A DNA stretch of 51,346 bases, taken from Myxococcales bacterium. GTDB lineage: Bacteria; Myxococcota; B64-G9. Positions 3,101 through 41,455 of the stretch are shown here, piece after piece. Positions within the stretch are counted from its first letter, which is position 1, and every line of letters starts with the position of its first letter. The notes under the pieces were generated by a model. It was not told where the DNA came from and did no database searches. It was given only the letters and a program-made list of their open reading frames with translations. Made by a program: the position numbers and the translations under genes. The stretch spans positions 1 through 51,346 of the forward strand of contig JAAZNF010000040.1 of the NCBI GenBank assembly GCA_012798435.1, given 5' to 3'.

Positions 3101-3771
3101 TCGCGGTCAAGGAACGGCTCACCAAGGAGATCGCCTACTGGGATCACCGCGCCCAGGAACTCAAGCTCCAGGAGCAGGCCGGGCGAGTGAACGCCCGGCT
3201 GAATTCGCAGGAAGCGCTAAAGCGCGCAGACGACCTGTCCGCCCGGCTGCAAAAACGGCTTTCCGATCTGGACCGAGAGGCGCAGCTTTCGCCGCTCCCG
3301 CCAGTGGTGCTCGGCGCCCTGGTGGTGGTACCGGCGGGCCTGCTGGCGATCATGGGCGGGCGGTCCTTTCCGGCCGAGGCATCCGCCCTTGACCGGCAGG
3401 CCGCGGCCGAGCGGGCCCGGGCGATAGTGATGGACATCGAGCGCGGCCTCGGCTTCGAGCCCGTTGACCGGGAGAAGGACAAGTGCGGCTACGACATCGA
3501 GAGCCGTGATCCCAGGACGGGCAAGCTGCGCTTCATCGAGGTCAAGGGGCGGACCGCGGAGGCGGCGACCCTTACGGTGACCCGCAACGAGATACTGTAC
3601 TCGTTGAACAAGCCCGACGACTTCATCCTGGCCATCGTGGAGTTATTGCCGGACGGCGCGCATCGCGTGCGCTACCTGCGCCGGCCATTCCAGCGCGAGC
3701 CGGACTTCGGCGTGACCAGCGTAAACTACGACCTGGGCGAGTTGCTCGCGCGAGCGGAGGAGCCGAGATGA
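193..3771 (+). CDS. SNF2/SWI2-type helicase with C-terminal DUF3883 domain (DISARM-like)
   Basis: A 1192-residue superfamily 2 helicase, probably the DNA-translocating motor of a phage-defence cassette. Walker A is DDPGAGKT with K135; the Walker B/DEAH box is at 232-235; motif III MTATP is near 268-272; motif V TDAAGEG is at 590-596; motif [13 protein letters not shown], with its arginine fingers, is at 619-629. An acidic insertion at about 400-470 separates the two RecA lobes. The C-terminus (about 1070-1165) looks like DUF3883, with D1101 followed by E1116-V-K1118, a spacing like PD-(D/E)XK nucleases, so it may cut or bind DNA. This architecture resembles DrmD of class 1 DISARM. The ATG is preceded by a weak GGGAGC ribosome site. 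The stop overlaps the next start as ATGA, so the two are translationally coupled. Helicase identity is certain; the defence role is inferred from family and neighbours. Confidence 0.9.
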
Positions 3772-6650: not shown

Positions 6651-6653
6651 GCG

Positions 6654-9600
6654 ATGGCCATGACCAATCACGATCGCGTCGGCAAGGCGCTGGAACTGCT
6701 CCGGGACGGCCTGGCGCCATACGCGGAGCGCGAGTTCGAAAGTCTCTACCCGTCCAAGGCGCAGGCCGAGGCGCAGCGTTTCATGGGCGAAGAGCGGCCG
6801 GCGGCCAAGAAACCGGTGGCCAAGTGGGACGCCGGAGCGTTGCTCAAGCTCATGTGGGAGGCCTGGAACGACGTCTTCCGCCGCACCCTGGGTCCGGCCG
6901 AGCGCACCCTGGTCCGCGAGCTTCGGGACGTGCGCAACCAGTGGGCGCACCAGGAGACTTTTTCCAGCGACGACGCCTACCGGGCCCTGGATTCCGCCAC
7001 CCGCTTGCTCACCGCCGTCTCCGCACCGCAGGCCGAGGAGGCCGAGCGACTGAAGATGGAACTCCTGCGCCTGCGCTTCGACGAGCATGTGCGCACCGAG
7101 AAGCGGAAGAGCGCGAGCACGACCATCGAGGCGACGACGCAGGGCAACGTCAAGCCCTGGCGGGAGGTGGTGACGCCGCACCCGGACGTGGCCAGCGGGC
7201 GGTACCAACAGGCGGAGTTCGCCGCCGATCTGTGGCAGGTCCATCTGAACGAGGGAAGCGACGAGTACAAGGACCCGGTGGAGTTCTTTCGCCGCACCTA
7301 CCTCACGGAGAGCCTGCGGCGTCTGTTGGTGGGCGCGGTGTCGCGCCTTTCGGGTTCGGGCGGCGATCCGGTGGTGCAGCTCCAGACCAACTTCGGCGGC
7401 GGCAAGACCCACTCGATGCTGGCGTTGTTCCACCTGTTCTCGGGCCGTGCCCCGAGCGAGCTGCCCGGGGTGGACGCGCTCATGGCCGAGGCCGGAGTGA
7501 AGAGTATCCCCCAGGCGAGGCGTGTGGTCATCGTGGGCAACCGCATCTCGCCGGGAAATCCGATGACCAAACCGGACGGCACGGTTGTGCGGACGCTGTG
7601 GGGCGAGATGGCCTGGCAGCTCGGCGGCAAGAAGGCCTACGCCAAGGTGAAGCTGGACGATCAAAAGGGCACCAGCCCGGGCGATCGCTTGCGCGAGCTT
7701 TTCAAGGAGTACGGGCCTTGCCTCATCCTGGTCGACGAGTGGGTGGCCTATGCGCGCCAGCTCCACGACAATAGCGACCTGGTGGGCGGAAGTTTCGAGA
7801 CCCAGTTCACCTTCGCCCAGGCGTTGACCGAGTCCGCCAAGCTCGCCAAGAACTGCCTGCTGGTCATCAGCCTGCCGGCCTCCGACACGGCCGTCTCGCC
7901 GCACGCCCAGGCCGATGATGTGGAGGTGGGCGGCAGCCGCGGCCGGGATGCGCTGGACCGCCTGCGCAACGTGATCGGCCGGATCGAATCCCCGTGGCGA
8001 CCCGCCAGCGCCGAGGAGGGGTTCGAGATCGTGCGCCGGCGGCTTTTCGAGCCGCTGGCCGGACCCGAGAAATTCAAGGAGCGCGACGTGTGCGCGCGCG
8101 CTTTCGCGGATCTGTACAAGGCGCACAAACAGGAGTTCCCGCCCGAGTGCGGGGACAGCGATTACGAAAAGCGCATCCGCGCGGCCTACCCGATCCACCC
8201 CGAGGTCTTCGATCGGCTCTACACGGACTGGTCGACGCTGGTGAAGTTCCAGCGCACCCGCGGCGGGTTGCGCCTGATGGCGACCGTGATCCACTCCTTG
8301 TGGGAGAAGGGCGACCGTAGCCCGCTCATCCTACCCGCGCTCATCCCCATCGACGAGCCCCAGGTGCAGTTCGAGCTCAACCGCTACCTGTCGGACAACT
8401 GGGGTCCGGTCATCGACAAGGACGTCGATGGCCCGGGGTCGTTGCCGCTGCGCTTGGACAGCGAGATTTCGAACCTTGGCAAGTACTCCGCTTGCCGCCG
8501 GGTGGCGCGGGTGATCTACCTCGGCTCCGCGCCGACCGCGACCGCGGCACATCAGGGGATCGAGGACCGTCGCATCAAGCTCGGCTGTGTGATGCCCGGC
8601 GAGTCGCCCGCCATCTTTGGCGATGCCTTGCGGCGGCTGGGTGCGGTCGCGACGTACCTGTACCAGGATGGGACACGGTATTGGTATTCCACGCAGCCAA
8701 CGGTCACCAAGCTGGCGGAGGACCGCGCCGAGCAATACAAGCGGGAGCCCGACCGGGTCATCATCGAGCTCGGTAAGCGGCTGCGACAGGATTTGCACAA
8801 GCGGGGCGACTTTGCCAAGGTCCATCCGCTCCCGTCTTCCAGCGCCGACATTCCGGACGAGCTCGAAACCCGGCTGGTAGTCCTGGGATTGGATCATCCC
8901 CACAGCAAGGATGCCGAGAGCCCGGCGATGGCGCAGTCACAGAAAACTCTCGAAACGCGCGGCACTGCGCCCCGCTTGTATCGAAACACGCTCGTTTTTC
9001 TGGCCGCAGACAAAATCCAGATGCAGGATCTGGACGAGGCGATCCGCCGGTTCCTGGCATGGGAGTCCATCTTGCAGGATCGGGAGAAGCTCGATCTCAC
9101 TCCAAATCAGGTGCGACAGGCCGAGGCACAGCGGGACGTGGCGGATAACACCGTCCAGGCACGACTTCCAGAAACCTACAAGTGGTTGCTGATTCCCAAA
9201 CAGAAGTCTCCGCATGACACCGTGCACTGGGAGGCGATCGCCTTGAGCGGGCGGGATGAGCTGGCTGTCCGGGCAAGTAAACGACTGCGAAATGACGAGC
9301 AACTGATCACCATGTTCGCTCCCACCAGCTTGCGAACGGAGCTGGACAACGTGCCCTTGTGGCGGGAAGACCATGTAGCCGTTCGGCAACTGGTGGAGGA
9401 CTTCGCGCGCTACCTGTACTTGCCGCGTCTTTCGGACCCCTCGGTGCTGGTGGCGGCGATACGCGATGGCCTCGGTTTGATCTCCTGGCAGCAGGAGTCC
9501 TTCGCCTATGCGGATGGCTATGACGAGGCGGCGAGAAGGTACCGTGGCCTGAGAGCCGGAAAGCCCGTCAACATCCAGGGACCTGATGCGCCGGGCTTGT

Positions 9601-9989
9601 TGGTGAAACCGGAAGTGGCGATAATGCAGCTCCATGCCGAATCCGCACCGCCATCGTCCAAGTCCGGGGATGTTCAGGCGCCACATGCTTCTACGACTGT
9701 GGATGGAGAACCAGGGAAAGCGCCCGAACCGGGAAAGCACTTCGCTCCAACCCGCCCGAAGCGTTTCCACGGAACGGTGACGCTCGATCCTACCCGGATG
9801 GGCAGGGACGCCGGGCGCATCGCCGAAGAGGTCGTCTCGCACCTGGTGGCGCAGCAGGGCGCCGAGGTCAGAGTCACACTGGAGATCGAGGCGAGCATCC
9901 CTGGCGGTGCGAGCGAACAGGTGGTGCGGACGGTGATGGAGAATTGCCGAACGATGAAGTTTTCGAACCAGGGGTTCGAGGAGGAGTAG
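6654..9989 (+). CDS. DUF499 P-loop ATPase with N-terminal Swt1/HEPN-like domain
   Basis: A 1111-residue AAA-like ATPase of the DUF499 type. The first 125 residues (starting MTNHDRVGKALELL) look like the Swt1/HEPN-type domain that often precedes such ATPases. Walker A is GGGKT at 248-252 (K251) and Walker B is LILVDE ending at D361-E362. The C-terminus carries the RVTLEIEASIPGG stretch seen in this family. DUF499 ATPases occur next to DUF1156 methylases and SNF2 helicases in defence islands and, as I recall, are related to the BREX BrxC/PglY ATPases. The start lies three bases after the methylase stop, with GAGGAG just upstream; a second ATG at 6660 is possible. No strong RNase motif (RxxxxH) was identified in the N-terminal domain, so nuclease activity is not claimed. 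Substrate and mechanism are unknown. Confidence 0.88.
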   Translation: MAMTNHDRVGKALELLRDGLAPYAEREFESLYPSKAQAEAQRFMGEERPAAKKPVAKWDAGALLKLMWEAWNDVFRRTLGPAERTLVRELRDVRNQWAHQETFSSDDAYRALDSATRLLTAVSAPQAEEAERLKMELLRLRFDEHVRTEKRKSASTTIEATTQGNVKPWREVVTPHPDVASGRYQQAEFAADLWQVHLNEGSDEYKDPVEFFRRTYLTESLRRLLVGAVSRLSGSGGDPVVQLQTNFGGGKTHSMLALFHLFSGRAPSELPGVDALMAEAGVKSIPQARRVVIVGNRISPGNPMTKPDGTVVRTLWGEMAWQLGGKKAYAKVKLDDQKGTSPGDRLRELFKEYGPCLILVDEWVAYARQLHDNSDLVGGSFETQFTFAQALTESAKLAKNCLLVISLPASDTAVSPHAQADDVEVGGSRGRDALDRLRNVIGRIESPWRPASAEEGFEIVRRRLFEPLAGPEKFKERDVCARAFADLYKAHKQEFPPECGDSDYEKRIRAAYPIHPEVFDRLYTDWSTLVKFQRTRGGLRLMATVIHSLWEKGDRSPLILPALIPIDEPQVQFELNRYLSDNWGPVIDKDVDGPGSLPLRLDSEISNLGKYSACRRVARVIYLGSAPTATAAHQGIEDRRIKLGCVMPGESPAIFGDALRRLGAVATYLYQDGTRYWYSTQPTVTKLAEDRAEQYKREPDRVIIELGKRLRQDLHKRGDFAKVHPLPSSSADIPDELETRLVVLGLDHPHSKDAESPAMAQSQKTLETRGTAPRLYRNTLVFLAADKIQMQDLDEAIRRFLAWESILQDREKLDLTPNQVRQAEAQRDVADNTVQARLPETYKWLLIPKQKSPHDTVHWEAIALSGRDELAVRASKRLRNDEQLITMFAPTSLRTELDNVPLWREDHVAVRQLVEDFARYLYLPRLSDPSVLVAAIRDGLGLISWQQESFAYADGYDEAARRYRGLRAGKPVNIQGPDAPGLLVKPEVAIMQLHAESAPPSSKSGDVQAPHASTTVDGEPGKAPEPGKHFAPTRPKRFHGTVTLDPTRMGRDAGRIAEEVVSHLVAQQGAEVRVTLEIEASIPGGASEQVVRTVMENCRTMKFSNQGFEEE

Positions 9990-26081: not shown

Positions 26082-28871
26082 TCACAGCGGGGTGGCGGTG
26101 ACCACGAGTTGGAACGGGCCCTGGCCGGTATAGGCCGCCGAGTACTGGTCGACGAACAGGTAGTAGGTGCCGGCGCCCAGAGTGGTAGTGATCTTCGAGA
26201 GGTAACCAGTTCCGCTGTCGTCATCGCAGGCGATCTCGGAGGCCGCGTTCTCACAGTCGGTGCGCAGGTACATCACCGAGTCGTCGAACGCGCTGCCGAC
26301 GTCCATGAGCTCGGCCACCACGTTGGAGCGGGCCTCGAGCGTGAAGCTGTACACCAGGTCCGCGCCGTCGGTGTAGTACTGGCAGTCGCCGTAGTAATCA
26401 GCGCGGGCGCCCGTGAGGTCGCCGTCCACCGTCGCGGTGCCCGAGCTGAGATCGATGGCGATGGCGCCGGTGCAGGTGTCGTTCTCGGGCGGCGGGGTGA
26501 CGTGGGCCAGGATGTCGAAGGCCTCGCCGTTGCCGCCGGCGGTATTGGCGTTCGTCACGGCCATGATCACCACGCCGGTGTAAGGCGCCACGAAGTCCAT
26601 CACCACCGGCTGGCCGGCCGCGGAGGCGGTCAGGTTGTACGCCTGGACCAGCGTGGGCGCTTCGGGATCGGCGTAGAACTCGCAATAGAAATAGCATTCG
26701 AGGGTGCCGAAGGCGTAGCCCATGACTTGCGGTTGGAGCTGGCCGTCCGCCGGCGGGGTCACCGTCACGGAGATCATGGCACCGGCCTCGACCGTCATGG
26801 TGTAGAAGGCGAAGTTGGTCAAGGGGTCGAGTTGCTGGCCGGTGACCTGGAGATCGGTGCCGATCACCGGGGCGCCGGCGTCGATCGTGTTCTGGACGTT
26901 GACGGAGGTATCGTAGGTGGCGCCGGTGATCAGGCGGTTGTCCGGATCCCACACCAGATGCAGGTAGTGGCCGCTCTCGCGGATGAACGTGATGCCCGGC
27001 TCGGCTGCCAGGATGTCGCCCGACTCCAGCTCCGTCGCGGGTCCCAGCAAGTCGAACAGCGGGGAGTAGAGCTGCTCGGTGGGGGTCGTGAACCCGGTCG
27101 GATTGAAGCCGGTGAACCACACCACCTGGCCAGCGTCGGCGATGAGGTGGTCGATGCCCAGGTTGGGGAACATCGAGTTGGGGATGAGGGAGTTGACCCC
27201 GAGGCCGGTGTAGCTCTGGCCGGCCTCCAGCAGCGGGGAGGCCACCTTCACGATCTCCGCCGTGTACAGGCTGGGAAGGCCTTCCTTCTCTTTGATCAGC
27301 ACGAACACGCGCATGTCGTGGTCGGCATACCAGATGCCCTCGGCCGGGTACACGGTGCCGGAGTCGACCAGCGTCTCGCCTTCGCCGATGAGGTTCATGT
27401 CGTTGTCGAACATCTTCATCTGCATGGTGGTGGTGGCCGCGGCGTCCACGTACACGCCGAAGTCGAGGAAGTCGCCGGTTGTGAGGCCGAGGCTGAAGCC
27501 CTGCTCGCCGCCCGCGGGCATGTCGCCGTCGATGTGGTTCTGGCCGTCCGCCGCGGTGATGGACTTCTGATCGATCTCGATGGCGAAGGTCTTGTTGGGG
27601 CCGATGGAGAGGAAGAAGTCCTGCACCACCAGGTAGTCACCGCCGATGGGCGCGCGGAAGAAGGCGTCCACGTCCAGGCCGATCTCGTCGCTGGTCGGGT
27701 CCTTGAGCAGGGTGCCGTCGGGACCGAACACGAGCAGCGCCATGAAGGTGTCGCTGACCTGGGTCTCGACCGGGGCGCCGAGCGAGGTCACCTGGATGAC
27801 GTCGTCGACCAGCAGATCGGGGACGGAGAAGAACTTGAGCGAGCCGTCGTTGAAGTCGCCGTTCTTGGCGTCGTGCGGCAGGAAGAAGTCCACCGTGGTG
27901 GGGGCCGCCTTGCGGGTCACGGTCACGAAGTAGGAGAAGTCCGCGCCGCCCACGCCGGGGGCGGAAAGGCCGAACAACATGTTGATCATGTTGTTGTAGT
28001 CGCTGACTTCCAGGATGTAGAGGCCGTCCTTGGGCAGGTACACCTCGCGCTCCGAGGTGAGCCCGTTGGGGTTCAGGCAGAAGCGCACGTAGAAGGTCTC
28101 GAAGGTGTCGGGGTCGACGCCGAGCAGGACGAACGTCGGCAGGGCCGCGCCCTCGGAGGTGGCGCTGATGCGAAGGTATGTGCCGGCGGTGCCCATGAAC
28201 ACGAAGCCGTCGAAGTCCGGGACCAGGTTGCCGTCGCCGGCCGCGTCGAAGGGAGCCTGGATGACGCCGCCCAGGGTGACCGACTGGCCCTCGGCCGGGA
28301 TCTGGAACTGGGCCGGGGTCGCGCCGGGGAGGAAGAGGTCGTTGTTCTCTGCGCCTTCCGCCACGTCCGGCTGGGGCAGCCGGTCGGCGACACAGGTGCC
28401 GTTCTCGGGGTGGGTACCCGCGCCGCACACCACGTCGGGCACGCACTCGCCGTTGTCCAGGTGGGTGCCGGGGGCGCAGGCGTCGATGTTGGCCTCGCAC
28501 TTGCCGGTGGTCGGGTTGAAGGTGGTGCCGACATCACAGGTGGGCACCGGCTTGCACTCGGTGCCGTCCCAGTATTCCTGATCGCCGCACTTGGGTACGC
28601 AGCGGCCGTTGATGAGCTCGGTGCCGGCGGCGCAATCGGTGATGTTGGCCTCGCACTTGCCGGTCGAGGGATTGAAGGTCGTGCCGGTGTCGCACGCCGG
28701 AATGTCTTTGCAGATGGCGCCGGTGCTGTCCCAGTACTGCCCGTCGGCGCACTGGGGCACGCACTTGCCGCCTTCCTTCTTGGTTCCGGGGCCGCACGAG
28801 GTGGAGTCGCCGCAGCCGCTCGCCCAGGCGCCCATCGCCATGGTCACTGCCAGGATCAGCAACTTCTTCAT
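26082..28871 (-). CDS. Large Cys-rich lipoprotein with tandem N-terminal repeats
   Basis: A 929-residue exported protein with an excellent AAGGAGG ribosome site. The signal ends ASGC, so it is a lipoprotein. Residues 20-165 hold a Cys-rich, EGF-like array; two near-identical units repeat the pattern CDxGTTFNPxTGKCEANI. The central 170-800 region is beta-rich with no named domain, and several segments look like Ig/pre-peptidase type modules. The C-terminal part (about 815-929, ending GTYYLFVDQYSAAYTGQGPF) resembles a bacterial pre-peptidase C-terminal domain. No protease catalytic motif is seen. It is a stand-alone transcription unit with its own promoter and terminator. Large lipoproteins of this style are common in Myxococcota; the function is unknown. 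Confidence 0.8.
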   Translation of the reverse strand: MKKLLILAVTMAMGAWASGCGDSTSCGPGTKKEGGKCVPQCADGQYWDSTGAICKDIPACDTGTTFNPSTGKCEANITDCAAGTELINGRCVPKCGDQEYWDGTECKPVPTCDVGTTFNPTTGKCEANIDACAPGTHLDNGECVPDVVCGAGTHPENGTCVADRLPQPDVAEGAENNDLFLPGATPAQFQIPAEGQSVTLGGVIQAPFDAAGDGNLVPDFDGFVFMGTAGTYLRISATSEGAALPTFVLLGVDPDTFETFYVRFCLNPNGLTSEREVYLPKDGLYILEVSDYNNMINMLFGLSAPGVGGADFSYFVTVTRKAAPTTVDFFLPHDAKNGDFNDGSLKFFSVPDLLVDDVIQVTSLGAPVETQVSDTFMALLVFGPDGTLLKDPTSDEIGLDVDAFFRAPIGGDYLVVQDFFLSIGPNKTFAIEIDQKSITAADGQNHIDGDMPAGGEQGFSLGLTTGDFLDFGVYVDAAATTTMQMKMFDNDMNLIGEGETLVDSGTVYPAEGIWYADHDMRVFVLIKEKEGLPSLYTAEIVKVASPLLEAGQSYTGLGVNSLIPNSMFPNLGIDHLIADAGQVVWFTGFNPTGFTTPTEQLYSPLFDLLGPATELESGDILAAEPGITFIRESGHYLHLVWDPDNRLITGATYDTSVNVQNTIDAGAPVIGTDLQVTGQQLDPLTNFAFYTMTVEAGAMISVTVTPPADGQLQPQVMGYAFGTLECYFYCEFYADPEAPTLVQAYNLTASAAGQPVVMDFVAPYTGVVIMAVTNANTAGGNGEAFDILAHVTPPPENDTCTGAIAIDLSSGTATVDGDLTGARADYYGDCQYYTDGADLVYSFTLEARSNVVAELMDVGSAFDDSVMYLRTDCENAASEIACDDDSGTGYLSKITTTLGAGTYYLFVDQYSAAYTGQGPFQLVVTATPL

Positions 28872-32499: not shown

Positions 32500-32991
32500 G
32501 TGGACGGACTCGCCATCTATCCCGGATCCTTCGACCCCGTGACGAACGGCCACCTCGACATCATCCGGCGCGGCCGGCGCATCTTCCCCCACCTGGTGGT
32601 GGCGGTGGCCATCAATCCGCGCAAGAACCCGATGTTCACGGTGGAGGAGCGAGTGGAGATGCTGCGCGAGTCGCTGCAAGACGAACCCGGAGTCGAGGTG
32701 GATTCCTTCCAGGGCCTGCTGGTGGAGTACGCCCGGCGGCGCAAGGCGGCCATCGTCATCCGGGGCCTGCGCGCGCTCTCGGACTTCGAAAACGAGTTTC
32801 AGATGGCCCACATGAACCACCGCCTGGCGCCCGAGCTAGAGACCTTCTTCATGATGACCGGGCAGGATCACTTCTACATCAGCTCGCAGACGGTGAAGGA
32901 AGTCGCCCTCTTCGGCGGCGACCTCCACGGGCTCGTGCCCGAGACCGTCCTGGCCCGCATCCAGGCCCGCGCGCAAAAGTCGCTCGATTGA
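32500..32991 (+). CDS. coaD: Phosphopantetheine adenylyltransferase
   Basis: A 163-residue enzyme that adds AMP to 4'-phosphopantetheine, the next-to-last step of coenzyme A synthesis. Family motifs: YPGSFDPVTNGH with catalytic H18, the RGLRALSDFENEFQMA segment and ISSQTVKEVA. The GTG start is set by AAGGAG seven bases upstream. The size is exactly that of the family. It is followed 17 bases later by an aminotransferase gene. Confidence 0.97.
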   Translation: MDGLAIYPGSFDPVTNGHLDIIRRGRRIFPHLVVAVAINPRKNPMFTVEERVEMLRESLQDEPGVEVDSFQGLLVEYARRRKAAIVIRGLRALSDFENEFQMAHMNHRLAPELETFFMMTGQDHFYISSQTVKEVALFGGDLHGLVPETVLARIQARAQKSLD

Positions 32992-33008
32992 GCGGGGAGG
33001 ACTCGCCG

Positions 33009-34199
33009 ATGAAACTCTCCGACCGTATCCTGTCCGTGAAACCGTCGCCCACCCTGGCCATGCAGGCCAAGGCCAACGCGCTGAAGGCCGCGGGCGAGAC
33101 CGTCTTTCCGCTGGCGGCGGGCGAGCCAGATTTCCCGACCCCAGAGGTCATTCGCCGCGCTGCGGTGCGGGCGCTGGACGAAGGCCACACCGGCTACACC
33201 GCCTCCGCGGGCATCCCTGCGCTGCGGGCGGCCATCCGCAAGGTGTACCGCGAGCGACAGGGGCTCTCCTTCGAGGACAACCAGGTGGTGGTGTGCTGCG
33301 GCGCCAAGCAGTGCCTGCTGAACGCCTTCCTGAGCCTTCTCGACCAGGGCAGCGAGGCCGTCATCCAGGCGCCGTACTGGGTCTCGTACCCGGAGCAGGT
33401 GCGATTGTGCGGGGGGAATCCCATCATCCTGCCGCCGCCGAAGGATGGCGGACAGATCAACCTGCCCGCCCTGGCCATGGCCATCACCGCCCGCACCCGC
33501 CTGATCGTGCTCAACAGCCCCTGCAACCCCACCGGCCAGGTGATCTCCGAGGAGGAGCTGCGCCAGGTGGCCAAGTTGGCGATGGAGCGGGACGTGGCCG
33601 TGGTTTCCGACGACATCTACGATCGCCTCATGTTCGACGGGCGCCGTTTCGTCTCCATCGTGCAGCTCGTCCCCGAGCTGGCTTCTCGCACCGTGCTGGT
33701 CAACGGGGTGAGCAAGTCCTTCTCCATGACCGGCTGGCGCCTCGGCTACGCCGTGGGTCCGGCCGACATCATCGCGGCCATGCGCAAGGTCCAGGACCAG
33801 TCCACCTCGAACGCCACCACCTTCGTGCAGCACGCCGCCGTCACGGCGCTCGAGTCCCCGCCGGAGATGGTGGACGAGATGGTGCGCGCCTTTGAAAAGC
33901 GCCGCAACCGCATGGTGGAGCTGCTGCGGGCGCTGCCGGGGGTCGAGTGCCCGATGCCCTCCGGGACGTTTTACGCCTTCCCCTCGTTTGCCGGGCTGCT
34001 GGGCAAGAGCTTCATGGGCGAGCGGATCGAGAGCACCCAGCGCCTGGCCGAGCTCTTGCTGGAACAGGAGCACGTGGCCACGGTGGCCGGGGAAGCCTTC
34101 GGCGCGCCGGGACACATCCGCTTCTCCTTTGCCACCGGGGTCGACGTCATCGAGGCCGGCCTGGCGCGGGTGCGACGTTTCATCGGGGAGCTGCACTGA
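33009..34199 (+). CDS. Pyridoxal-phosphate aminotransferase (aspartate aminotransferase family)
   Basis: A 396-residue class I/II aminotransferase, most like subgroup Ib aspartate aminotransferases, moving amino groups between aspartate and 2-oxoglutarate. The PLP-binding lysine is K236 in NGVSKSFSMTG; NSPCNPTG and VVSDDIYD give the other cofactor contacts. GGGGAGGA seven bases before the ATG at 33009 decides this start over a TTG at 32988. Related prephenate or other substrates cannot be excluded. It lies between coaD and a TPR-barrel gene. Confidence 0.9.
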   Translation: MKLSDRILSVKPSPTLAMQAKANALKAAGETVFPLAAGEPDFPTPEVIRRAAVRALDEGHTGYTASAGIPALRAAIRKVYRERQGLSFEDNQVVVCCGAKQCLLNAFLSLLDQGSEAVIQAPYWVSYPEQVRLCGGNPIILPPPKDGGQINLPALAMAITARTRLIVLNSPCNPTGQVISEEELRQVAKLAMERDVAVVSDDIYDRLMFDGRRFVSIVQLVPELASRTVLVNGVSKSFSMTGWRLGYAVGPADIIAAMRKVQDQSTSNATTFVQHAAVTALESPPEMVDEMVRAFEKRRNRMVELLRALPGVECPMPSGTFYAFPSFAGLLGKSFMGERIESTQRLAELLLEQEHVATVAGEAFGAPGHIRFSFATGVDVIEAGLARVRRFIGELH

Positions 34200-34217: not shown

Positions 34218-35735
34218 ATGAGGCGCGCGTCTGTTATGCGTTTTTGGCATTTACTGGTCGCGCTCATCCTGGGGTGCCTGCCGCCGGGCGTCTCCTGGGC
34301 CGGATCGCCCGAGGTGGACTTCGCCAAGGGCGTGGTGGCTTTCTCGCGAAAGGATCTTTTTCAGGCGGAGAAGCACTTCCGCGAGGTTCTTGTGTCACAG
34401 CCGCAGAACCCGAGGGCCATCTATTACCTTGGCCAGGTCCTGTTTCTGGCCGGGAGAACCGCCGAGGCGGTGGAGAATTTCCGGCGGGCGATCGCCATCG
34501 CTCCGGACATGGTCGGAGCCCGGCTGGATCTGGCACAAGCCTTGATAAAGCTCGGGGATTTTCCTTCCGCCGAGGGTGAACTCAGAGTGGCGGAGCCAGC
34601 GGCCCCAGAACGCGCCGCTGTAAAGTACTACCTTGGATATTGCCTTTACCAATCTGGAAAATATAAAGAATCAATCGAGTACATGTCGCTTGCTCGAAAC
34701 CTCGATCAGGGATTTGGCGCCTCGGCCGCATACTATCTCGGTCTGGCGCAGGCGCGTTCGGGCCAGATCGAGGAGGCGCGAAAGAGCTTCGAGGCAGCAG
34801 CCCTGGCGACCGAAAACCAGTCCCTGTCCGACATGGCCCGGCGCAACATCAACGTGCTCGGCGGCGAGAGGCCGAGGGTCCGGCGATTCGGCCTCTATGC
34901 CACCGCCGGCGGCGGGTACGACTCCAACGTCGCCCTGGAGCCGGACCAGGGGAGCGGCACTGGCTCGGCGCGGCTCTTCCTGGCCGCGGGCGGGTATCTC
35001 AACATCCTTCAAGAGGCAAACCAGAGCCTGGTGGCCTCGTTGTCGGCGAGCCGAAGTTTTTACCTGGCCGAATCCGTATCTGGATTCGATCTTACTGATT
35101 TTTCTGGGTTTCTCGGGTACCGTCACCAGTTCGGTAAGTATCGTCTGGAACTTGCGTACCAGGGTTCAATCGATCTGTTGTCCGACATCGGGCTCGGAAA
35201 TCCCAATCGCAACGTTGGAGATGGCGTCGGTGTGTATCTCCACTCGCACGCGGGGCGCGCGTCGGTGCGGATCGCCGAGGGTGAGAGCGCCGGGACGTCG
35301 TTGGAGTACGTCTTCTCGGCACGGTTCTTCGACTATGACATGCGCAACTGCTTCGAGCACTCGGTCGCGGTGGTGCAAGATGTGCGGCTTTTGTCGAGGC
35401 TCTCGCTGCTTGTACGGGCCGGGGTGGTGATCGCGGACGCCTACGGCGACGACTGGGACATGTGGTCGCCCAACCTGGAAGCCGAGGCCCGGTACGCCCC
35501 GGCGAGTTGGTTGAGCCTCAGCCTCCAGACGGGTTTCCGGCGCGAGAGCTACTATCATTTTCCGATGGACCCCGAGCGCCTGGACGTTCGTCTAGGCGCG
35601 GGAGCCGGCGCCACCTTCTGGTTGGGGCAGAATCTCTCTATCCAGGTGGGGTACATGTTCTTCTTGAACGATTCGAACCAGCCGTTCTCCTACCAACGAA
35701 ACATCGCCACCCTCTCGCTGACGGGCCAGATGTGA
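34218..35735 (+). CDS. TPR plus outer-membrane beta-barrel protein
   Basis: A 505-residue exported protein. After the signal peptide (ending GVSWAG), TPR-like repeats occupy about 33-205; then a beta-barrel with alternating aromatic strands fills about 220-505, with GGGYDSNVALEP at its opening and an aromatic C-terminal region. This periplasmic-TPR plus barrel layout resembles exporters of surface lipoproteins (DUF560/Slam-like) or of polysaccharides (PgaA/BcsC-like); the assignment is structural inference. It lies 18 bases after the aminotransferase. A sigma-54 promoter and the FecR genes follow, so it may be the exporter for the lipoproteins downstream. Confidence 0.75.
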   Translation: MRRASVMRFWHLLVALILGCLPPGVSWAGSPEVDFAKGVVAFSRKDLFQAEKHFREVLVSQPQNPRAIYYLGQVLFLAGRTAEAVENFRRAIAIAPDMVGARLDLAQALIKLGDFPSAEGELRVAEPAAPERAAVKYYLGYCLYQSGKYKESIEYMSLARNLDQGFGASAAYYLGLAQARSGQIEEARKSFEAAALATENQSLSDMARRNINVLGGERPRVRRFGLYATAGGGYDSNVALEPDQGSGTGSARLFLAAGGYLNILQEANQSLVASLSASRSFYLAESVSGFDLTDFSGFLGYRHQFGKYRLELAYQGSIDLLSDIGLGNPNRNVGDGVGVYLHSHAGRASVRIAEGESAGTSLEYVFSARFFDYDMRNCFEHSVAVVQDVRLLSRLSLLVRAGVVIADAYGDDWDMWSPNLEAEARYAPASWLSLSLQTGFRRESYYHFPMDPERLDVRLGAGAGATFWLGQNLSIQVGYMFFLNDSNQPFSYQRNIATLSLTGQM

Positions 35736-35846
35736 AGTGATGGAGCCACGAGGCGATTTTCCATGGAATCGCTCAAGATTTTGAAACCCACCGAGGAAAG
35801 GAAGGCGCCTGGTTTTCTCAGTAGCTTGTTTTGTAATGGCTTTTCA

Positions 35847-35862
35847 GGTGATCCAGATCACC
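35847..35862. promoter_or_regulatory. Palindromic operator-like site
   Basis: GGTGATCCAGATCACC: seven-base arms GGTGATC/GATCACC around CA. It contains TGAT-N4-ATCA, the spacing of Fnr/Crp-family half-sites. It lies just upstream of the sigma-54 promoter. Confidence 0.5.
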
Positions 35863-35868
35863 AGCCCA

Positions 35869-35884
35869 TGGCACGGGACATGCT
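35869..35884 (+). promoter_or_regulatory. Sigma-54 promoter of the FecR module
   Basis: TGGCACGGGACATGCT matches the consensus TGGCACG-N4-TTGCW at all but one position, with the invariant GG and GC ten bases apart. Transcription should begin near 35895, about 26 bases before the ATG at 35921. No sigma-54 activator gene was seen in the window. Confidence 0.7.
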
Positions 35885-35920
35885 TGGCTTCTCGTTTATA
35901 GAAAGTGTGAGGAGATGAGC

Positions 35921-36844
35921 ATGAAAACCGTGGTGGCCATGTCGCTTGTGCTTTTCTGGGCCTCGTTGTCGCTGGCCCAGGGTGTGGGTTTCGTCGCGGC
36001 GGTCTCGGGCGATGCCCGTCTGGTACGCGACGGAACGTCCGTGGAGATCTCGGTGGGTGCCGAAATCCGGGAAGGCGATCAGATCCTGACGGGGGCCAAG
36101 GGGCGGGTAAAGATCCTGCTCTCCGATGACAGCATCCTGGCCCTCGGCAACAAGTCCGATCTGCGAATCGAGGCGCACCGATTCTCGGTGGTACAAAAAG
36201 AACGGAAGACGCGGATCAACCTCGGCACCGGGGCGGTGCGAGCACTGGTCCAGAAGACGGTGCACGGCGGCTCGGCCGACTTCGAGGTGAGGACGGGAAA
36301 CGCGGTGGCTGGGGTGAGGGGCACGGAGTTCGTCCTCGAGTCTGACAACGGCTCCTCGCGCCTCAGCACGCTCTCCGGAGAAGTGGAGTTCTCGACCGCG
36401 GAGGGAGTCCGGGCGCTGGTGGCGGCGGGGCAGGGGAGCCGGCTGGGAGCCGAGGGCGGCGCGCTGGCCTCCTTCAGCCTGAGCGTGGAGGACGTCGCCC
36501 GCTTGCGCCGTGACACCGAAGCCGAACAGGGGCCCGAGATGCTGGCCTTCGCCGGTTCGGTCCCCGTCGATGATCGCTTGGGCGGTCCGACCGCCAGCGT
36601 GCCGGCGGATGGGAGTGCCGAGCGCAGGACCGACTCGTCCACGGCCGGGAACCTCGGCAGCGGAGCCGTGCGGAGCGACGGGAATCTTCCGTTAGGCGGG
36701 ATGACTCCAGAGAACCTGGCGGCGAGCGCCTGGGGCAATCCAGTCGATGGGCAAGGCAGCGGGGACTGGACGTGGCAGTGGGACAACAAGAACGCGGTCA
36801 CCGGCGGAAGATCCATCCAGGTCCAGATCGTCCTGCGTAAGTGA
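35921..36844 (+). CDS. FecR-domain exported protein, copy 1
   Basis: A 307-residue periplasmic or surface protein. The signal peptide ends SLAQG; a FecR domain follows at about 20-150, with LLSDDSILALG, FEVRTGNAVAGVRGTEF and STLSGEVEF. The C-terminal part (160-307) is low in known motifs and ends SIQVQIVLRK. AGGAG at 35910-35914 favours the ATG at 35921 over the one at 35915. It is clearly paralogous to the FecR gene at 37643 (shared GVGFVA, LLSDDS, VRGTEF and C-terminal pattern). It is preceded by a sigma-54 promoter and followed by a CxxC lipoprotein gene with 31 bases between. The partner sigma or sensor is not present, so this is not the classic iron-uptake FecR. Confidence 0.85.
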   Translation: MKTVVAMSLVLFWASLSLAQGVGFVAAVSGDARLVRDGTSVEISVGAEIREGDQILTGAKGRVKILLSDDSILALGNKSDLRIEAHRFSVVQKERKTRINLGTGAVRALVQKTVHGGSADFEVRTGNAVAGVRGTEFVLESDNGSSRLSTLSGEVEFSTAEGVRALVAAGQGSRLGAEGGALASFSLSVEDVARLRRDTEAEQGPEMLAFAGSVPVDDRLGGPTASVPADGSAERRTDSSTAGNLGSGAVRSDGNLPLGGMTPENLAASAWGNPVDGQGSGDWTWQWDNKNAVTGGRSIQVQIVLRK

Positions 36845-36875
36845 GTGTTGTCGCTTCGGAGGCAGGGAGGCGGTC

Positions 36876-37637
36876 ATGAGGCTGCTTTTGGCATGTGGGA
36901 TGGCCTGGCTGGCGACCATGGAGTTGGGCTGTTATCCCGAGTCCGATGCGGGGCTCTCGTTGGTAGAGCTGCCGCTCGGACATCTGGGGATCGAGGTCGA
37001 TGCCCCCGCCGTGGAGAACTGGGGACGGTACGCCACCAAGACCCAGGCCCTGCCGTACGAGCTGGACCCGCAGCAACGCAAGTTCTTCCTTCAACTTGCG
37101 CTTCGCGCCGAGGACGGGTTGGCGGTGAACGCCTCGCTGGCCAGCGTGTCTTACTACGAGCAGAACGCCCTCCTCACCCTCGGCCTGGTCATGGACACCT
37201 GTCACCGCTGCCGCTTCACGGCCGCGATCTTCCTCGGCGCGGCCGAGGGCAAGGTCGAAACCTACACCGGTGAGACCGACTGGTTCGACTCGGAGAAGAT
37301 CTCCTCCCCGATCCCGGTCTCGGCCTGGATCCACCCGGTCGGCAGCCTGCGCTGCCTCCTCTCGGACGGGACCATCCAGTGGCTCGCGCTGCGGGACATC
37401 CAGGCGGACCTGCGCTTTCCGCGGATCGCGCCCAGCCAGACGGCCGGAGGTGGCTACGAGGCCCTCCTGCCGTGGCTGCCAGTCGGTCGGCGCACGGCCG
37501 TTGACCTCTCCGTCAACGACCAGGTGCAGGCCGCCGTGCTGAGAGATTCGACGCAGCTCGAGTCCACCGAGGTGAACCTCGACGTGGCCGGCCAGGAGCT
37601 GGTATTCTATTGTGCGGTGGATTCAGGACGCCCGTGA
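36876..37637 (+). CDS. CxxC lipoprotein, copy 1
   Basis: From the ATG at 36876 (GGGAGG ribosome site) this is a 253-residue lipoprotein; the signal ends TMELGC, a lipobox. After GCYP come a VELPLGHLG stretch and a Cys pair MDTCHRC. This Cys pattern and the VxLPxGxLG stretch recur in the lipoprotein at 38735, so the two are paralogues. Family unknown. It sits with FecR copy 1 in a sigma-54-driven unit; its role as a surface protein is inferred from the lipobox and the barrel gene upstream. Confidence 0.7.
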   Translation: MRLLLACGMAWLATMELGCYPESDAGLSLVELPLGHLGIEVDAPAVENWGRYATKTQALPYELDPQQRKFFLQLALRAEDGLAVNASLASVSYYEQNALLTLGLVMDTCHRCRFTAAIFLGAAEGKVETYTGETDWFDSEKISSPIPVSAWIHPVGSLRCLLSDGTIQWLALRDIQADLRFPRIAPSQTAGGGYEALLPWLPVGRRTAVDLSVNDQVQAAVLRDSTQLESTEVNLDVAGQELVFYCAVDSGRP

Positions 37638-37642
37638 CCGGA

Positions 37643-38698
37643 ATGGATTCCGCCCGTACGATGCACACATTTATCGCAGAAATATCGTTGCGTGACCGAC
37701 CGCGAGGAGGCCGAAAGAGCCAGCGCGGGCGGTCGTGTTTTGTACCGCCTTGGCGCGAATGCGCCGTGCGAGATGGTGGCGGCAGGCTGCGGCGGGGTGA
37801 ACGCTTTCGGCTGGAGCTGTCTTGTTCCCCGCGCCTTGGCTTCGCCTGGTTCTTTCTGGCCGCGGTCGCGGCATTTTCACCAGCGATAGCGTTGGGGGCC
37901 GGGGTCGGTTTCGTCGCCGGCGCGAAGGGCGAGGCTCGCATCGTGCGCGGCGAGGCCTCGCTCCCCGCCGCGATCGGCTCGGAGGTGCTCGAACGCGACA
38001 CGCTGCGGACCGGGCCCGGGGGCCGGCTCCGGGTGCTGCTCTCCGACGACTCGGTGCTCTCGCTCGGGGCGAACTCCGAGCTTCGGATCGTCGAGCACCT
38101 CTTCCAGGAGGGGCAGCGCCGCACCCGGCTCGATCTTTCCGGAGGTCTCGTCCGCTCCCTGGTGCAGAAGATGGTGAGCGGGCGGCCGGCGGACTTCGAG
38201 GTGCGTACCGGCAACGTGGTGAGCGGCGTGCGGGGGACCGAGTTCGTGATACAGCGCATGGACGGGGGCGCCCGCATCGCGGTGCTCTCCGGCGAGGTGG
38301 AATACCTTTCGGACGGCGGGACGCGCGCCTTGCTGGCCGCAGGATTCGGCTGCGACGTCGGCGGGCCGGCCAGCGCGAGCCCGGTGGCGCTCGCCGACGC
38401 CGAGATCCGCTCGCTCAAGGAGTCCACTGACGCCGAGTCGAGCCCGGAGGCGCTGGCGTCCGCCGCGCCGCTCTCCCGCGAGGTGCTGGAGGAGGGGAGT
38501 TTCCTGCCGGCGCGCGAGCGGGCGCCGGAGCAGGAGCCGTTTCGCAGCGAAGCGATGCAGCCTGGCAACAACCGGGTGGGGTTCGGCGGCGACGCCGGGA
38601 CCGACTTCGAGTTGGGGCAGATGTTCGGTCAGACCGGTCCCCAGCCGGGCCACAAGACGGGCGATGTGAGCGTGACCATCACGCTGCGCCCGCGATGA
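37643..38698 (+). CDS. FecR-domain exported protein, copy 2
   Basis: A 351-residue protein, paralogue of the FecR protein at 35921. The FecR domain lies at about 85-230, with LLSDDSVLSLG, FEVRTGNVVSGVRGTEF and VLSGEVEY; the C-terminus ends SVTITLRPR. The membrane signal AWFFLAAVAAFSPAIALGAG starts unusually late, near residue 67, after a long Arg-rich stretch. A start at the GTG at 37766 would give a normal signal peptide and is a serious alternative. It begins five bases after the first lipoprotein stop, which favours the ATG. The order repeats copy 1: FecR then CxxC lipoprotein. Confidence 0.75.
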   Translation: MDSARTMHTFIAEISLRDRPRGGRKSQRGRSCFVPPWRECAVRDGGGRLRRGERFRLELSCSPRLGFAWFFLAAVAAFSPAIALGAGVGFVAGAKGEARIVRGEASLPAAIGSEVLERDTLRTGPGGRLRVLLSDDSVLSLGANSELRIVEHLFQEGQRRTRLDLSGGLVRSLVQKMVSGRPADFEVRTGNVVSGVRGTEFVIQRMDGGARIAVLSGEVEYLSDGGTRALLAAGFGCDVGGPASASPVALADAEIRSLKESTDAESSPEALASAAPLSREVLEEGSFLPARERAPEQEPFRSEAMQPGNNRVGFGGDAGTDFELGQMFGQTGPQPGHKTGDVSVTITLRPR

Positions 38699-38734
38699 TC
38701 GGGAGAGCGTTGGAGCTTGTATTTGAACACCAAC

Positions 38735-39568
38735 ATGCGCCGTATGTTCAAGCATGTTTTGAGCGGCCGACCGCGGGGCCAGCAGAGCCGGCGCGGGCGG
38801 CCGCGCGTTGAAGTTGCGGCCGGAGGCCGCGTCCGGCGCCTCCCTTGGTTGTTCGCTGTTACGCTTCCGTTGCTGGGTGGCTGCTATCCGTACCAGGCGG
38901 GCGATGTGGATGAGGTCGAGGTCCGGGTGCCCGTCGGCACCTTGGGCGCTAAGGAAGAAGACCTCGAGGGACTGCGCGGGTTGCTCGTCCAGCGCCAGGA
39001 TGGCCTCGATGCCGTCTTCGACCTGGGCGCGCCGCGCTCGAACTTCTACCTGGGGCTCTCGTTCGTCTCGAACGCGGGTGGGAGCCAGCCGTCCGTGTCC
39101 GGCATCTCCTCGCTCATGCTGCACCAGGACCCCAACGGCTTCATCACCGAGCTGGATGTCCAGGTCCTGGTGAGTCCGTGCCCGGAGTGCGTCATCAAAG
39201 GGATCGTGTTCTGGAGCCGGGACAGCCGGAGCGTGCAGACCTTTTCGGGGAGCGCGCCGTGCGACATCGAGTCCAGGCAGTGCGCGCTCATCCTCGACGA
39301 GCAACCGACGGGGAACGTGATGGCGCATGCCGTGGGCGGCCAGGAGGGCCTGACGCTGGCCGCGCTGGACGCCGAGGAGTTGGTGCGCTTCCCGCGCGCC
39401 GAGGCCCAGGACGGCGCCGCCGGGTACTACCTCATGGATGCCATTCCGCTGAACCGGCCGTTCATGGTCCAGCTCGACAGGGGCGGTGGCTTCGTCGACG
39501 TCACCGGTGTCGTCCTGACGCAGGAGGGCGAGCGGCGCCAGGTGGACTTCGATCCCGAGAGCCTCTGA
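38735..39568 (+). CDS. CxxC lipoprotein, copy 2
   Basis: A 277-residue lipoprotein paralogous to the one at 36876: the lipobox is LLGGC with the same GCYP start, then VRVPVGTLG and the Cys pair SPCPEC. The N-terminus has an Arg-rich leader (GRPRGQQSRRGR) similar to that of FecR copy 2. The start is uncertain: a TTG at 38717 adds six residues and a start nearer the signal is possible; no strong ribosome site is seen. Function unknown; likely surface exposed with the FecR partner. Confidence 0.68.
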   Translation: MRRMFKHVLSGRPRGQQSRRGRPRVEVAAGGRVRRLPWLFAVTLPLLGGCYPYQAGDVDEVEVRVPVGTLGAKEEDLEGLRGLLVQRQDGLDAVFDLGAPRSNFYLGLSFVSNAGGSQPSVSGISSLMLHQDPNGFITELDVQVLVSPCPECVIKGIVFWSRDSRSVQTFSGSAPCDIESRQCALILDEQPTGNVMAHAVGGQEGLTLAALDAEELVRFPRAEAQDGAAGYYLMDAIPLNRPFMVQLDRGGGFVDVTGVVLTQEGERRQVDFDPESL

Positions 39569-39965
39569 GGCGGTCTCGGGCAATCCGTCATGCGACAGGA
39601 GCGGGCTCGCGGTCGATTGTGTCGGTGGGCAATATGCGACAGTGTCGGGGGGATACACGGCCGTGGTCACAGTGCCTGCCCGCGCCCCGGACAACGACCG
39701 GTCAACGACCGGTGCCAACGACCGGTGCCACCCACCCCGGAAACGCCCCGGAAACGCCCAAAGAAATGATTATTTATCAATAGGTTATAATGAGAACAAG
39801 GGGAGGGTCATCCGGGAGGTGAACGGGGTGGGTGGGAAGGGGTATCCAGGGCAGGGATCAGGGGCGGCGTCGGATTTTTTGCAGATGACAGGCACGGCGG
39901 GTTGTCAGGTTAGATGACCAGGCGGTTCGAAACGGGGCGGGACGGAAAAGTAGCTGGGCGAGCTC
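39569..39965. other. Intergenic region with tandem repeats and an AT-rich island
   Basis: About 400 bases between convergent genes with no convincing gene. It holds short tandem repeats at 39692-39756, then a sharp AT-rich island around 39761-39791 including a TATAAT (39786-39791) without a matching -35 box, then a G-rich stretch to about 39850. No terminator was recognised. Confidence 0.55.
39692..39756. repeat. Tandem 11-base repeats
   Basis: Three copies of CAACGACCGGT (39692-39702, 39703-39713, 39716-39726) and then two of CCCCGGAAACG (39735-39745, 39746-39756). Two unrelated repeats side by side suggest local slippage or protein-binding iterons. Confidence 0.75.
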
Positions 39966-40484
39966 TTACTCGGCGATGCCGATAATCTTCCAGTCGGCCT
40001 TCTTGCGGACGATGACCAAGAGAAAGCCAGGGCGCCGCTCGAAGGTGACGGCGGCGAACACGGCCCCGGCGGGGAAGGCACCCGCGAACTTCTTGGGCGG
40101 CGGGCCGAAGCGCTCGGTCGCCTGCGAGAGCGTCAGGATCTCGATGTCGATCTTCTGCTTGCCGCCGAGGCTCTCCCGCTGCGGCGCGAGCGCCAGGCGG
40201 AGGTGGCGAAGGATCTCCTCGCGTCCGGAGACGACTCGCCCGTCGAAGTTGAAGGGGTCGCCGCACAACGCAGAAAGCGCCTCGTCCTGTTCCGAACCCA
40301 TGGCGGACACGAAGGCGCGCGCCGTCTTGAGCGCGGTGCTCTCAGTCTCCCCCGGAAGCTCGGGGTCGCGCGGCGGTTCATCGCCGCCCTCCTCGGCCGC
40401 CCGCGCGGCGGCGCGCTTTTCGCACTCGGTGCATGGGGCCAAGAGTGCCATGGGAAGCACAAGGCACAAGGCGAGCGTCAGCAT
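39966..40484 (-). CDS. NTF2/SnoaL-like exported or lipoprotein coupled to purC
   Basis: A 172-residue protein starting in a TGATG overlap with the purC stop. The signal (LALCLVLPMALLAPC) ends in a Cys, so it may be a lipoprotein. The mature part (about 55-172, with TARAFVSAMGSEQDEALSAL and a C-terminal WKIIGIAE) looks like the NTF2-like/SnoaL fold: conserved hydrophobic pattern with a ligand cavity. There is no catalytic motif. The link to purine synthesis is only positional. Confidence 0.68.
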   Translation of the reverse strand: MLTLALCLVLPMALLAPCTECEKRAAARAAEEGGDEPPRDPELPGETESTALKTARAFVSAMGSEQDEALSALCGDPFNFDGRVVSGREEILRHLRLALAPQRESLGGKQKIDIEILTLSQATERFGPPPKKFAGAFPAGAVFAAVTFERRPGFLLVIVRKKADWKIIGIAE

Positions 40485-41455
40485 CACGCTATCCCCCGGG
40501 CCGCGATCCCGGCCCGCTTCAGGTTCTGGATCAAGCGCTTCTGGATGTCGCCCCGCGGCAGGGTGGGTTCGCGTCCGGTGAGGCGCTTTTCGAGCCCCAG
40601 GTAGGTGCGGGCCAGCTCTAGGCGCACCTCGGATGTGAGCACCGGGGGCGTCCCGTTGCCCGAGAAGCCGCGCGCAAGGAGCCACTGGCGGATGTTCTCC
40701 TTGTCGAGCATGACCTGCGGCTCCCGGCGCTCGAAGCGGAGCTTGTAGCCCTCGGCCTCCCAGTAGCGGCTCGAGTCCGGGGTGTGCACTTCGTCCATCA
40801 GGTAGAGTTTCTCGCCTTCCAGGCCGAACTCGTACTTGGTGTCGACCAGCAGCAGGCCCCGCCGGGCCGCCTCTTGCTCGCCGAACTCGAACAGTCGGCG
40901 GGCGGCGGCCTCGATACGATACCAGAGCGGCTCGCTGATCAGGCCCCGGCGCAGCGCCTCCGTCGGGGCGATGGGCTGATCGTGCTCGCCGACCGCCTCC
41001 TTGGTGGTGGGCGTGAGGATGGGCTCGTCGAAGCGCTGATCGGGGCGCAGGCCCTCTGAAAGCCTCAGGCCATAGATCTCCCGCGCGCCCTTCTCGTACT
41101 CGCGCCACAGGCTGCCGGTGATGTAGCGGCGCATGACGATCTCGAGCGGGATGGGCTGGAGCTTCTTCACCACCATGGCGCACGGGTCGGGGAGCGACAG
41201 CATGTGGTTGGGGCACAGCTCGCGGGTCTTGTCGAACCAGTGGGCGGCGATGCTGTTGAGCGTCTGGCCCTTGCAGGGGATGGTCCCCAGCACCACGTCG
41301 AAGGCGCTGATGCGGTCGGTGGTGACGATGAGCAGGCGGTCGCCGAGGTCGTAGACGTCGCGCACCTTGCCCCGCGCGGGCTCCGGCAGGCCGGGGATCT
41401 CCGTCCGCTCCAGGGTGCAGTCGAGCAGCGGAAGCAACGGGTCGGTCTTTTCCAT
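40484..41455 (-). CDS. purC: SAICAR synthetase
   Basis: A 323-residue phosphoribosylaminoimidazole-succinocarboxamide synthase, the ATP-dependent ligase that adds aspartate in purine biosynthesis. Family motifs: GKVRDVYDLGDRLLIVTTDRISAFDVVL near the N-terminus, RRYITGSLWREYEKG, LVDTKYEFG and MDEVHTPDSSRYW. The length suits the long bacterial form. It is followed by the NTF2-like gene in a TGATG overlap. No promoter could be recognised in the 160-base gap upstream. Confidence 0.96.
   Translation of the reverse strand: MEKTDPLLPLLDCTLERTEIPGLPEPARGKVRDVYDLGDRLLIVTTDRISAFDVVLGTIPCKGQTLNSIAAHWFDKTRELCPNHMLSLPDPCAMVVKKLQPIPLEIVMRRYITGSLWREYEKGAREIYGLRLSEGLRPDQRFDEPILTPTTKEAVGEHDQPIAPTEALRRGLISEPLWYRIEAAARRLFEFGEQEAARRGLLLVDTKYEFGLEGEKLYLMDEVHTPDSSRYWEAEGYKLRFERREPQVMLDKENIRQWLLARGFSGNGTPPVLTSEVRLELARTYLGLEKRLTGREPTLPRGDIQKRLIQNLKRAGIAARGIA

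Follow-up and report, generated by a model that had tools for sequence, protein, structure and literature searches.

Outside Proteobacteria and Bacteroidota, the route by which lipoproteins reach the cell surface is largely open. In the Fec system the FecR domain acts beneath an outer-membrane barrel. Type XI (Slam) outer-membrane proteins combine tetratricopeptide repeats (TPR) with a 14-stranded barrel, whereas PgaA has 16 strands (PMC8406197). In Bacteroidetes, a lipoprotein export signal, C-x-K-(D/E)2, is found behind the lipid cysteine (PMC5080379). Here we describe a gene cassette at positions 34218-39568 of contig JAAZNF010000040.1 of a Myxococcales bacterium. The entire contig of 51,346 bases, from a genome of 5.05 Mb in 129 contigs, was analysed and is referred to as the window. 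According to the list of open reading frames (ORFs), the cassette encodes on the plus strand a TPR-barrel protein, FecR-domain protein 1 (FecR 1), lipoprotein 1, FecR 2 and lipoprotein 2, the FecR-lipoprotein module being present twice (35915-39568) downstream of the barrel gene. An original prediction, made from the DNA sequence, had described this order, and all five ORFs were found in the place it had given them.

Results

Nine genomes of the window's family were searched for the barrel and the lipoproteins. The barrel, FecR and lipoprotein genes were found together in seven of them and were all missing in the other two, and the trio is therefore inherited present or absent together. The cassette is a real genetic unit. 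The gene order in the family is coaD, aminotransferase, TPR-barrel, one or two FecR-lipoprotein modules, NTF2-like gene and purC, with the right flank seen only where the contig extends that far. One genome carries a third lipoprotein. In G004 the aminotransferase gene is directly followed by the NTF2-like gene and purC, which makes a clean empty site, and in G003, also without the cassette, a different gene follows the aminotransferase. The original prediction had described tandem FecR-lipoprotein modules beside the barrel gene. What is conserved as a unit is the trio of barrel, FecR and lipoprotein; the tandem doubling is a lineage-specific extra.

A barrel-domain profile was also searched in 195 Myxococcota genomes. 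Among its 25 best-scoring loci (E up to about 5e-12), 20 have a FecR gene adjoining the barrel; 14 of these barrels belong to the profile itself, having been picked by barrel similarity, not by their neighbours. Most of these loci also have an adjoining lipoprotein gene. Genomes contain only about 0-14 FecR genes each, and FecR loci sampled independently of the barrel had no such barrel nearby, so the barrel-FecR linkage is far from chance. FecR in general was rejected as a barrel partner, since the sampled FecR genes elsewhere have other contexts. In other Myxococcota families the trio has unrelated flanks, e.g. gyrB, dnaN and dnaA (named by eye). The conserved co-occurrence with the TPR-barrel, proposed earlier as a check, was thus strong in the family as well as in the phylum. 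A scan of a genome collection returned same-family genomes plus one Bacteroidetes match limited to TPR, and nothing else; the related records were Myxococcota/Deltaproteobacteria metagenome bins. Plasmid searches gave TPR or FecR-domain fragments only, and in the library of papers searched no description of the barrel-FecR-lipoprotein trio was found.

Related barrels were also seen in other settings. L106 (5792-10582) and L109 are divergent barrel loci with a lipoprotein and a possible FecR-like gene, located between glycosyltransferase/nucleotidyltransferase genes. At L112 (G099, 4313-7844) a related TPR-barrel without FecR lies beside a 665-residue predicted lipoprotein that is secreted-protease-like by eye. 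The middle gene of the loci G026 C45 and G013 C3 looked FecR-like by eye, but was left out of the FecR-neighbour count because profile comparison gave no support.

The barrel protein has a Sec signal peptide, TPR helices at residues 31-214 and a 14-stranded beta-barrel at residues 223-504. Its Pfam TPR matches include TPR_Slam (43 bits, cut-off 35.2). The AlphaFold model shows TPR helices followed by 14 strands (predicted local distance difference test, pLDDT, 88; predicted template modelling score, pTM, 0.57), with a periplasmic arm that is all TPR. Relatives are 36-40% identical to the window protein, and the barrel residues D, N, R and R are invariant across 14 of them. Structural matches of the model in the PDB were BcsC, OmpG, CymA, PelB and PgaA-type barrels as well as TPR proteins, BcsC being the best full-length match. 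The last third of the barrel is similar to BBP2_2 (PF10082) at a sub-threshold level: the window protein gave an E of 5.7e-5, which misses the curated cut-off. Comparison of the barrel profile with solved-structure sequences gave nothing credible. The LILGC near the start raised the possibility of a lipoprotein, which was rejected as the cysteine is not present in relatives.

Both FecR proteins matched Pfam FecR (65 bits for FecR 1 and 68 bits for FecR 2, cut-off 24). FecR 1 consists of a Sec signal peptide, the FecR domain at residues 55-158, a Gly/Asp/Pro-rich linker and a C-terminal beta-strand, SIQVQIVLRK; in FecR 2 this strand is VSVTITLRPR. Both start with a signal peptide (by eye) and have no cytoplasmic anti-sigma part. 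Their predicted paralogy was borne out: LLSDDS and VRGTEF are present in both, the proteins are 39% identical, a 98-nucleotide stretch of the two genes is 74% identical at the DNA level, and the two are placed together in the FecR tree. Paralogues cluster by genome in this tree, in which most supports are modest, and FecR identity among relatives is 33-54%, save one pair with 82%. The very end of barrel-linked FecRs, past the Gly/Asp/Pro-rich linker, is a strand of alternating hydrophobic residues. This pattern was detected in 22 of 26 barrel-linked FecRs (20/24 without two profile-unsupported FecR-like genes) and in none of 8 other FecRs (Fisher p 3e-5); it was picked, like the lipoprotein patterns below, after viewing the sequences, and in both cases the rows are related, not independent. 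The N-terminal part of FecR resembles the LapA/MpAFP retention region (family profile against 5ix9, E 8.6e-4), and NF033682 reached 27.9 bits with FecR 1 (cut-off 50).

At L028 (8505-11455) two FecR copies are 82% identical with differing C-termini, which suggests a recent duplication or gene conversion. In the window, FecR 2 is flanked on both sides by a repetitive extragenic palindromic (REP)-like repeat, CCGACCGC..GCC..GCGCGGGCGGYCG, with a hairpin of -25.8 kcal/mol. The pattern has six matches in its own genome, four of them outside the cassette, and none in the reversed-pattern control.

In lipoprotein 1 the lipid cysteine is residue 19 (36930-36932), the start of CYPES, and is followed by VELPLGHLG and a CxxC (CHRC). 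Lipoprotein 2 has the lipobox LGGC (cysteine 38882-38884), CYPYQ, VRVPVGTLG and the CxxC CPEC. The lipobox, CYP, VxxPxGxLG and CxxC are common to both, but overall identity is only 21%, so the paralogy claimed for them rests on these motifs and a common family profile. The label of CxxC-lipoproteins fared less well. The motif is present in both window proteins but in only 7 of 12 lipoprotein relatives; it is therefore optional and no defining trait, and a thioredoxin-like role was rejected on the same count. Neither protein matched a Pfam or NCBIfam family, so they did not turn out to belong to a known unrelated one, and the lipoprotein profile found nothing credible among solved-structure sequences. 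The AlphaFold model of lipoprotein 2 (pLDDT 88.8, pTM 0.84) is rich in beta-sandwich, and none of the 50 PDB matches listed for it is a Slam cargo.

The lipoproteins that accompany the barrel in different genomes (partner lipoproteins) are about 14-35% identical and diverge faster than FecR and the barrel. Their bodies are unrelated: about 220, 449 and 689 residues, 1079 residues with a beta-helix and 2056 residues with TIG repeats, the longest, in G014, having about 2200 residues. Folds and domains were TIG, beta-helix, immunoglobulin (Ig)-like or no known domain. Common to them is a short acidic stretch with a beta-strand behind the lipid cysteine. The strand pattern was present in 18/22 partners and 4/40 controls (p 2e-8), Tyr/Phe at +2 behind the cysteine in 14/22 and 1/40 (p 1e-7), and acidic residues behind the cysteine were enriched in the partners (p 1e-5; motif C-Y/F-P-[DE]), some of the 40 controls being spurious ORFs and at least one, L116, a genuine partner. 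When two partner lipoprotein families were compared by profile, only the N-terminal segment aligned.

Table 1. Features of the cassette and its flanks in the window.
Feature	Position	Strand	Basis and remarks
coaD (left flank)	32500-32991		Upstream of aminotransferase; outside cassette
Class I/II aminotransferase (left flank)	32988..34199	+	Pfam; order kept in family genomes; outside cassette
TPR-barrel outer-membrane protein, 505 aa	34218..35735	+	ORF; Pfam TPR; AlphaFold; conserved residues
FecR-domain protein 1, 309 aa	35915..36844	+	Pfam FecR; alignment with 13 relatives; C-terminal strand
Lipoprotein 1, 253 aa	36876..37637	+	Translation; relatives; no Pfam/NCBIfam match
REP-like palindromic repeat, copy 1	37696..37735	+	Between lipoprotein 1 and FecR 2
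FecR-domain protein 2	37811..38698	+	Open frame reaches back to 37610, start codon uncertain; Pfam FecR
Lipoprotein 2	38735..39568	+	Start uncertain, 38717-38840; lipobox; AlphaFold; relatives
REP-like palindromic repeat, copy 2	38767..38803	+	At start of lipoprotein 2 ORF
Small exported NTF2-like protein (right flank)	39966..40484	-	Convergent; named by eye; outside cassette
purC	40484-41455		Next after NTF2-like gene; outside cassette

Pfam scans covered the recognisable genes of the window up to about 48 kb. None of them was found to encode a sigma factor or a TonB-type receptor, in agreement with the earlier remark that sigma and iron genes are not near, and no polysaccharide synthase or glycosyltransferase was found near the locus. 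The NTF2-like protein had no Pfam match; its gene is kept beside purC in the family even without the cassette. The gap after lipoprotein 2 contains short tandem repeats at 39687-39759, about 3 copies of CAACGACCGGTGC and about 2 of CCCCGGAAACG. Elsewhere, the window carries complete Hma-type anti-phage defence genes at 193-9989 (HmaA helicase, HmaB methylase and HmaC ATPase). A tRNA-Gly called by ARAGORN at 26496-26572, inside a 929-residue ORF, is probably false, as Rfam does not call one.

Discussion

A barrel and a FecR that are conserved, next to modular lipoproteins that change fast and have only an N-terminal tag in common, are what one would expect of a translocon, a gate and their cargo. 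We see about an even chance that the cassette encodes a hitherto undescribed unit of the outer membrane for the display of lipoproteins, in which FecR acts in the periplasm as gate or adaptor. Somewhat short of even, and tentative, is the more specific proposal of a new Myxococcota lipoprotein surface-export system, with a 14-stranded TPR translocon outside the Slam profile, a FecR-fold gate docking by its C-terminal strand, and interchangeable cargo of 220 to about 2200 residues with a post-anchor address motif. The original suggestion of an undescribed surface-display or secretion system agrees with the co-occurrence and with the TPR and 14 strands, as in Slam, whereas the surface export itself, like the transport, its direction, the FecR docking and the surface location of the lipoproteins, is what we infer.

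In such a system the TPR-barrel would act as translocon: once a lipoprotein has been brought to the outer membrane, the periplasmic TPR arm would collect it and the 14-stranded barrel would let it reach the outside. As modelled, a 14-stranded TPR-barrel fits a surface-display system, as in the Slam translocon. FecR would lie in the periplasm beneath the barrel, gating it or serving as an adaptor, and would dock via the conserved C-terminal beta-strand; the role is proposed because FecR acts under Fec barrels and because its N-terminal part is similar to the retention region that giant adhesins carry. The lipoprotein would be the cargo, recognised by the acidic stretch and beta-strand behind the lipid anchor, and would stay anchored at the surface. 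With the FecR-lipoprotein module doubled in the window genome, one translocon may serve two matched pairs.

Several observations weigh against lipoprotein display. The window barrel was unmatched by the SlipAM (PF04575) profile, for which the best E was 0.044, in 2/14 relatives. A SlipAM search of the whole genome gave no match, but the control of that search gave none either. The lipoprotein model resembles generic Ig/fibronectin (Fn)-like folds only, among the PDB matches listed. Barrel-FecR pairs without an adjoining lipoprotein gene were found in G014 C19 and G040, and the two divergent barrel loci G026 C45 and G013 C3 lie between glycosyltransferase and nucleotidyltransferase genes. In addition, the N-terminal motif could partly stem from common lipoprotein biology or the mutual likeness of signal peptides; the control set was impure, and the sequences compared are related to one another.

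Alternatively, the products could form a structural outer-membrane complex in which FecR and the lipoprotein hold or gate the TPR porin, as PelC for PelB, and no protein is exported. A set of a single barrel, periplasmic protein and lipoprotein looks like a complex of fixed stoichiometry, the structural matches include the PelBC barrel, and the likeness of FecR to the retention region points to a plug. However, lipoproteins with unrelated bodies of up to about 2200 residues, with TIG or beta-helix, would be odd for a fixed subunit, and they are the fastest-diverging member of the trio; we consider this explanation unlikely. Even less probable is that the barrel, together with accessory proteins, exports polysaccharide as the porins PgaA, BcsC and PelB do. 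The TPR and barrel plan is common to such porins, BcsC gave the best full-length structural match and the two divergent barrel loci adjoin glycosyltransferase and nucleotidyltransferase genes, but the barrel has 14 strands, not 16 (PMC8406197), TM-scores (template modelling scores) to BcsC/PelB/PgaA-type porins are low, and no synthase or glycosyltransferase was found near the window locus. Cell-surface signalling in the manner of FecA-FecR-FecI, in which the barrel would be the receptor and FecR the messenger, is very improbable. It was rejected because of the genes present and the way FecR is built: the FecR domain is present twice, but the proteins have a signal peptide and no cytoplasmic anti-sigma part, the scanned genes include no sigma factor, and the barrel does not belong to the TonB-dependent receptors.

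If lipoprotein display is true, it would provide a translocon for Myxococcota and a stand-alone role for FecR-domain proteins, a common group whose usual annotation is iron regulator. A further gain would be a short address tag from which surface lipoproteins could be predicted in Myxococcota genomes.

Comparison with described systems

The likeness to the BBP2_2 putative porins is sub-threshold and covers the last third of the barrel only. As in the Bacteroidetes export signal, acidic residues are found right behind the lipid cysteine of the partner lipoproteins; however, Tyr/Phe-Pro/Gly precedes the acids, a beta-strand comes after them, and there is no K-(D/E)2. The likeness to the LapA/MpAFP retention region is weak and concerns the N-terminal part of FecR, which is a separate protein in the window, whereas the retention region is the start of a giant repeats-in-toxin (RTX) adhesin. 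With FecR of the FecIRA ferric citrate system the window proteins share a FecR (PF04773) domain acting in the periplasm, but no sigma partner was found for them in the scanned genes, and they are without a cytoplasmic part and have a signal peptide, a linker and a C-terminal beta-strand. PgaA, BcsC and PelB similarly have a TPR arm fused to an outer-membrane barrel, but theirs is 16-stranded and comes with synthase genes, whereas the window barrel is 14-stranded and no synthase was found among the genes scanned around it.

The type XI (Slam) systems share with the cassette an N-terminal periplasmic TPR arm, a C-terminal 14-stranded barrel and an adjoining cargo-like lipoprotein gene. They differ in that the window barrel is unmatched by the SlipAM (DUF560) profile, the window lipoproteins are without the C-terminal 8-stranded beta-barrel of Slam cargo, and the cassette usually has an extra FecR partner and a Myxococcota host. 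As two of the defining type XI features, barrel profile and cargo fold, were tested and found absent, true Slam membership was rejected and the cassette is not classed as type XI. Of the known kinds, type XI secretion comes nearest, and the cassette at most works like such a system.

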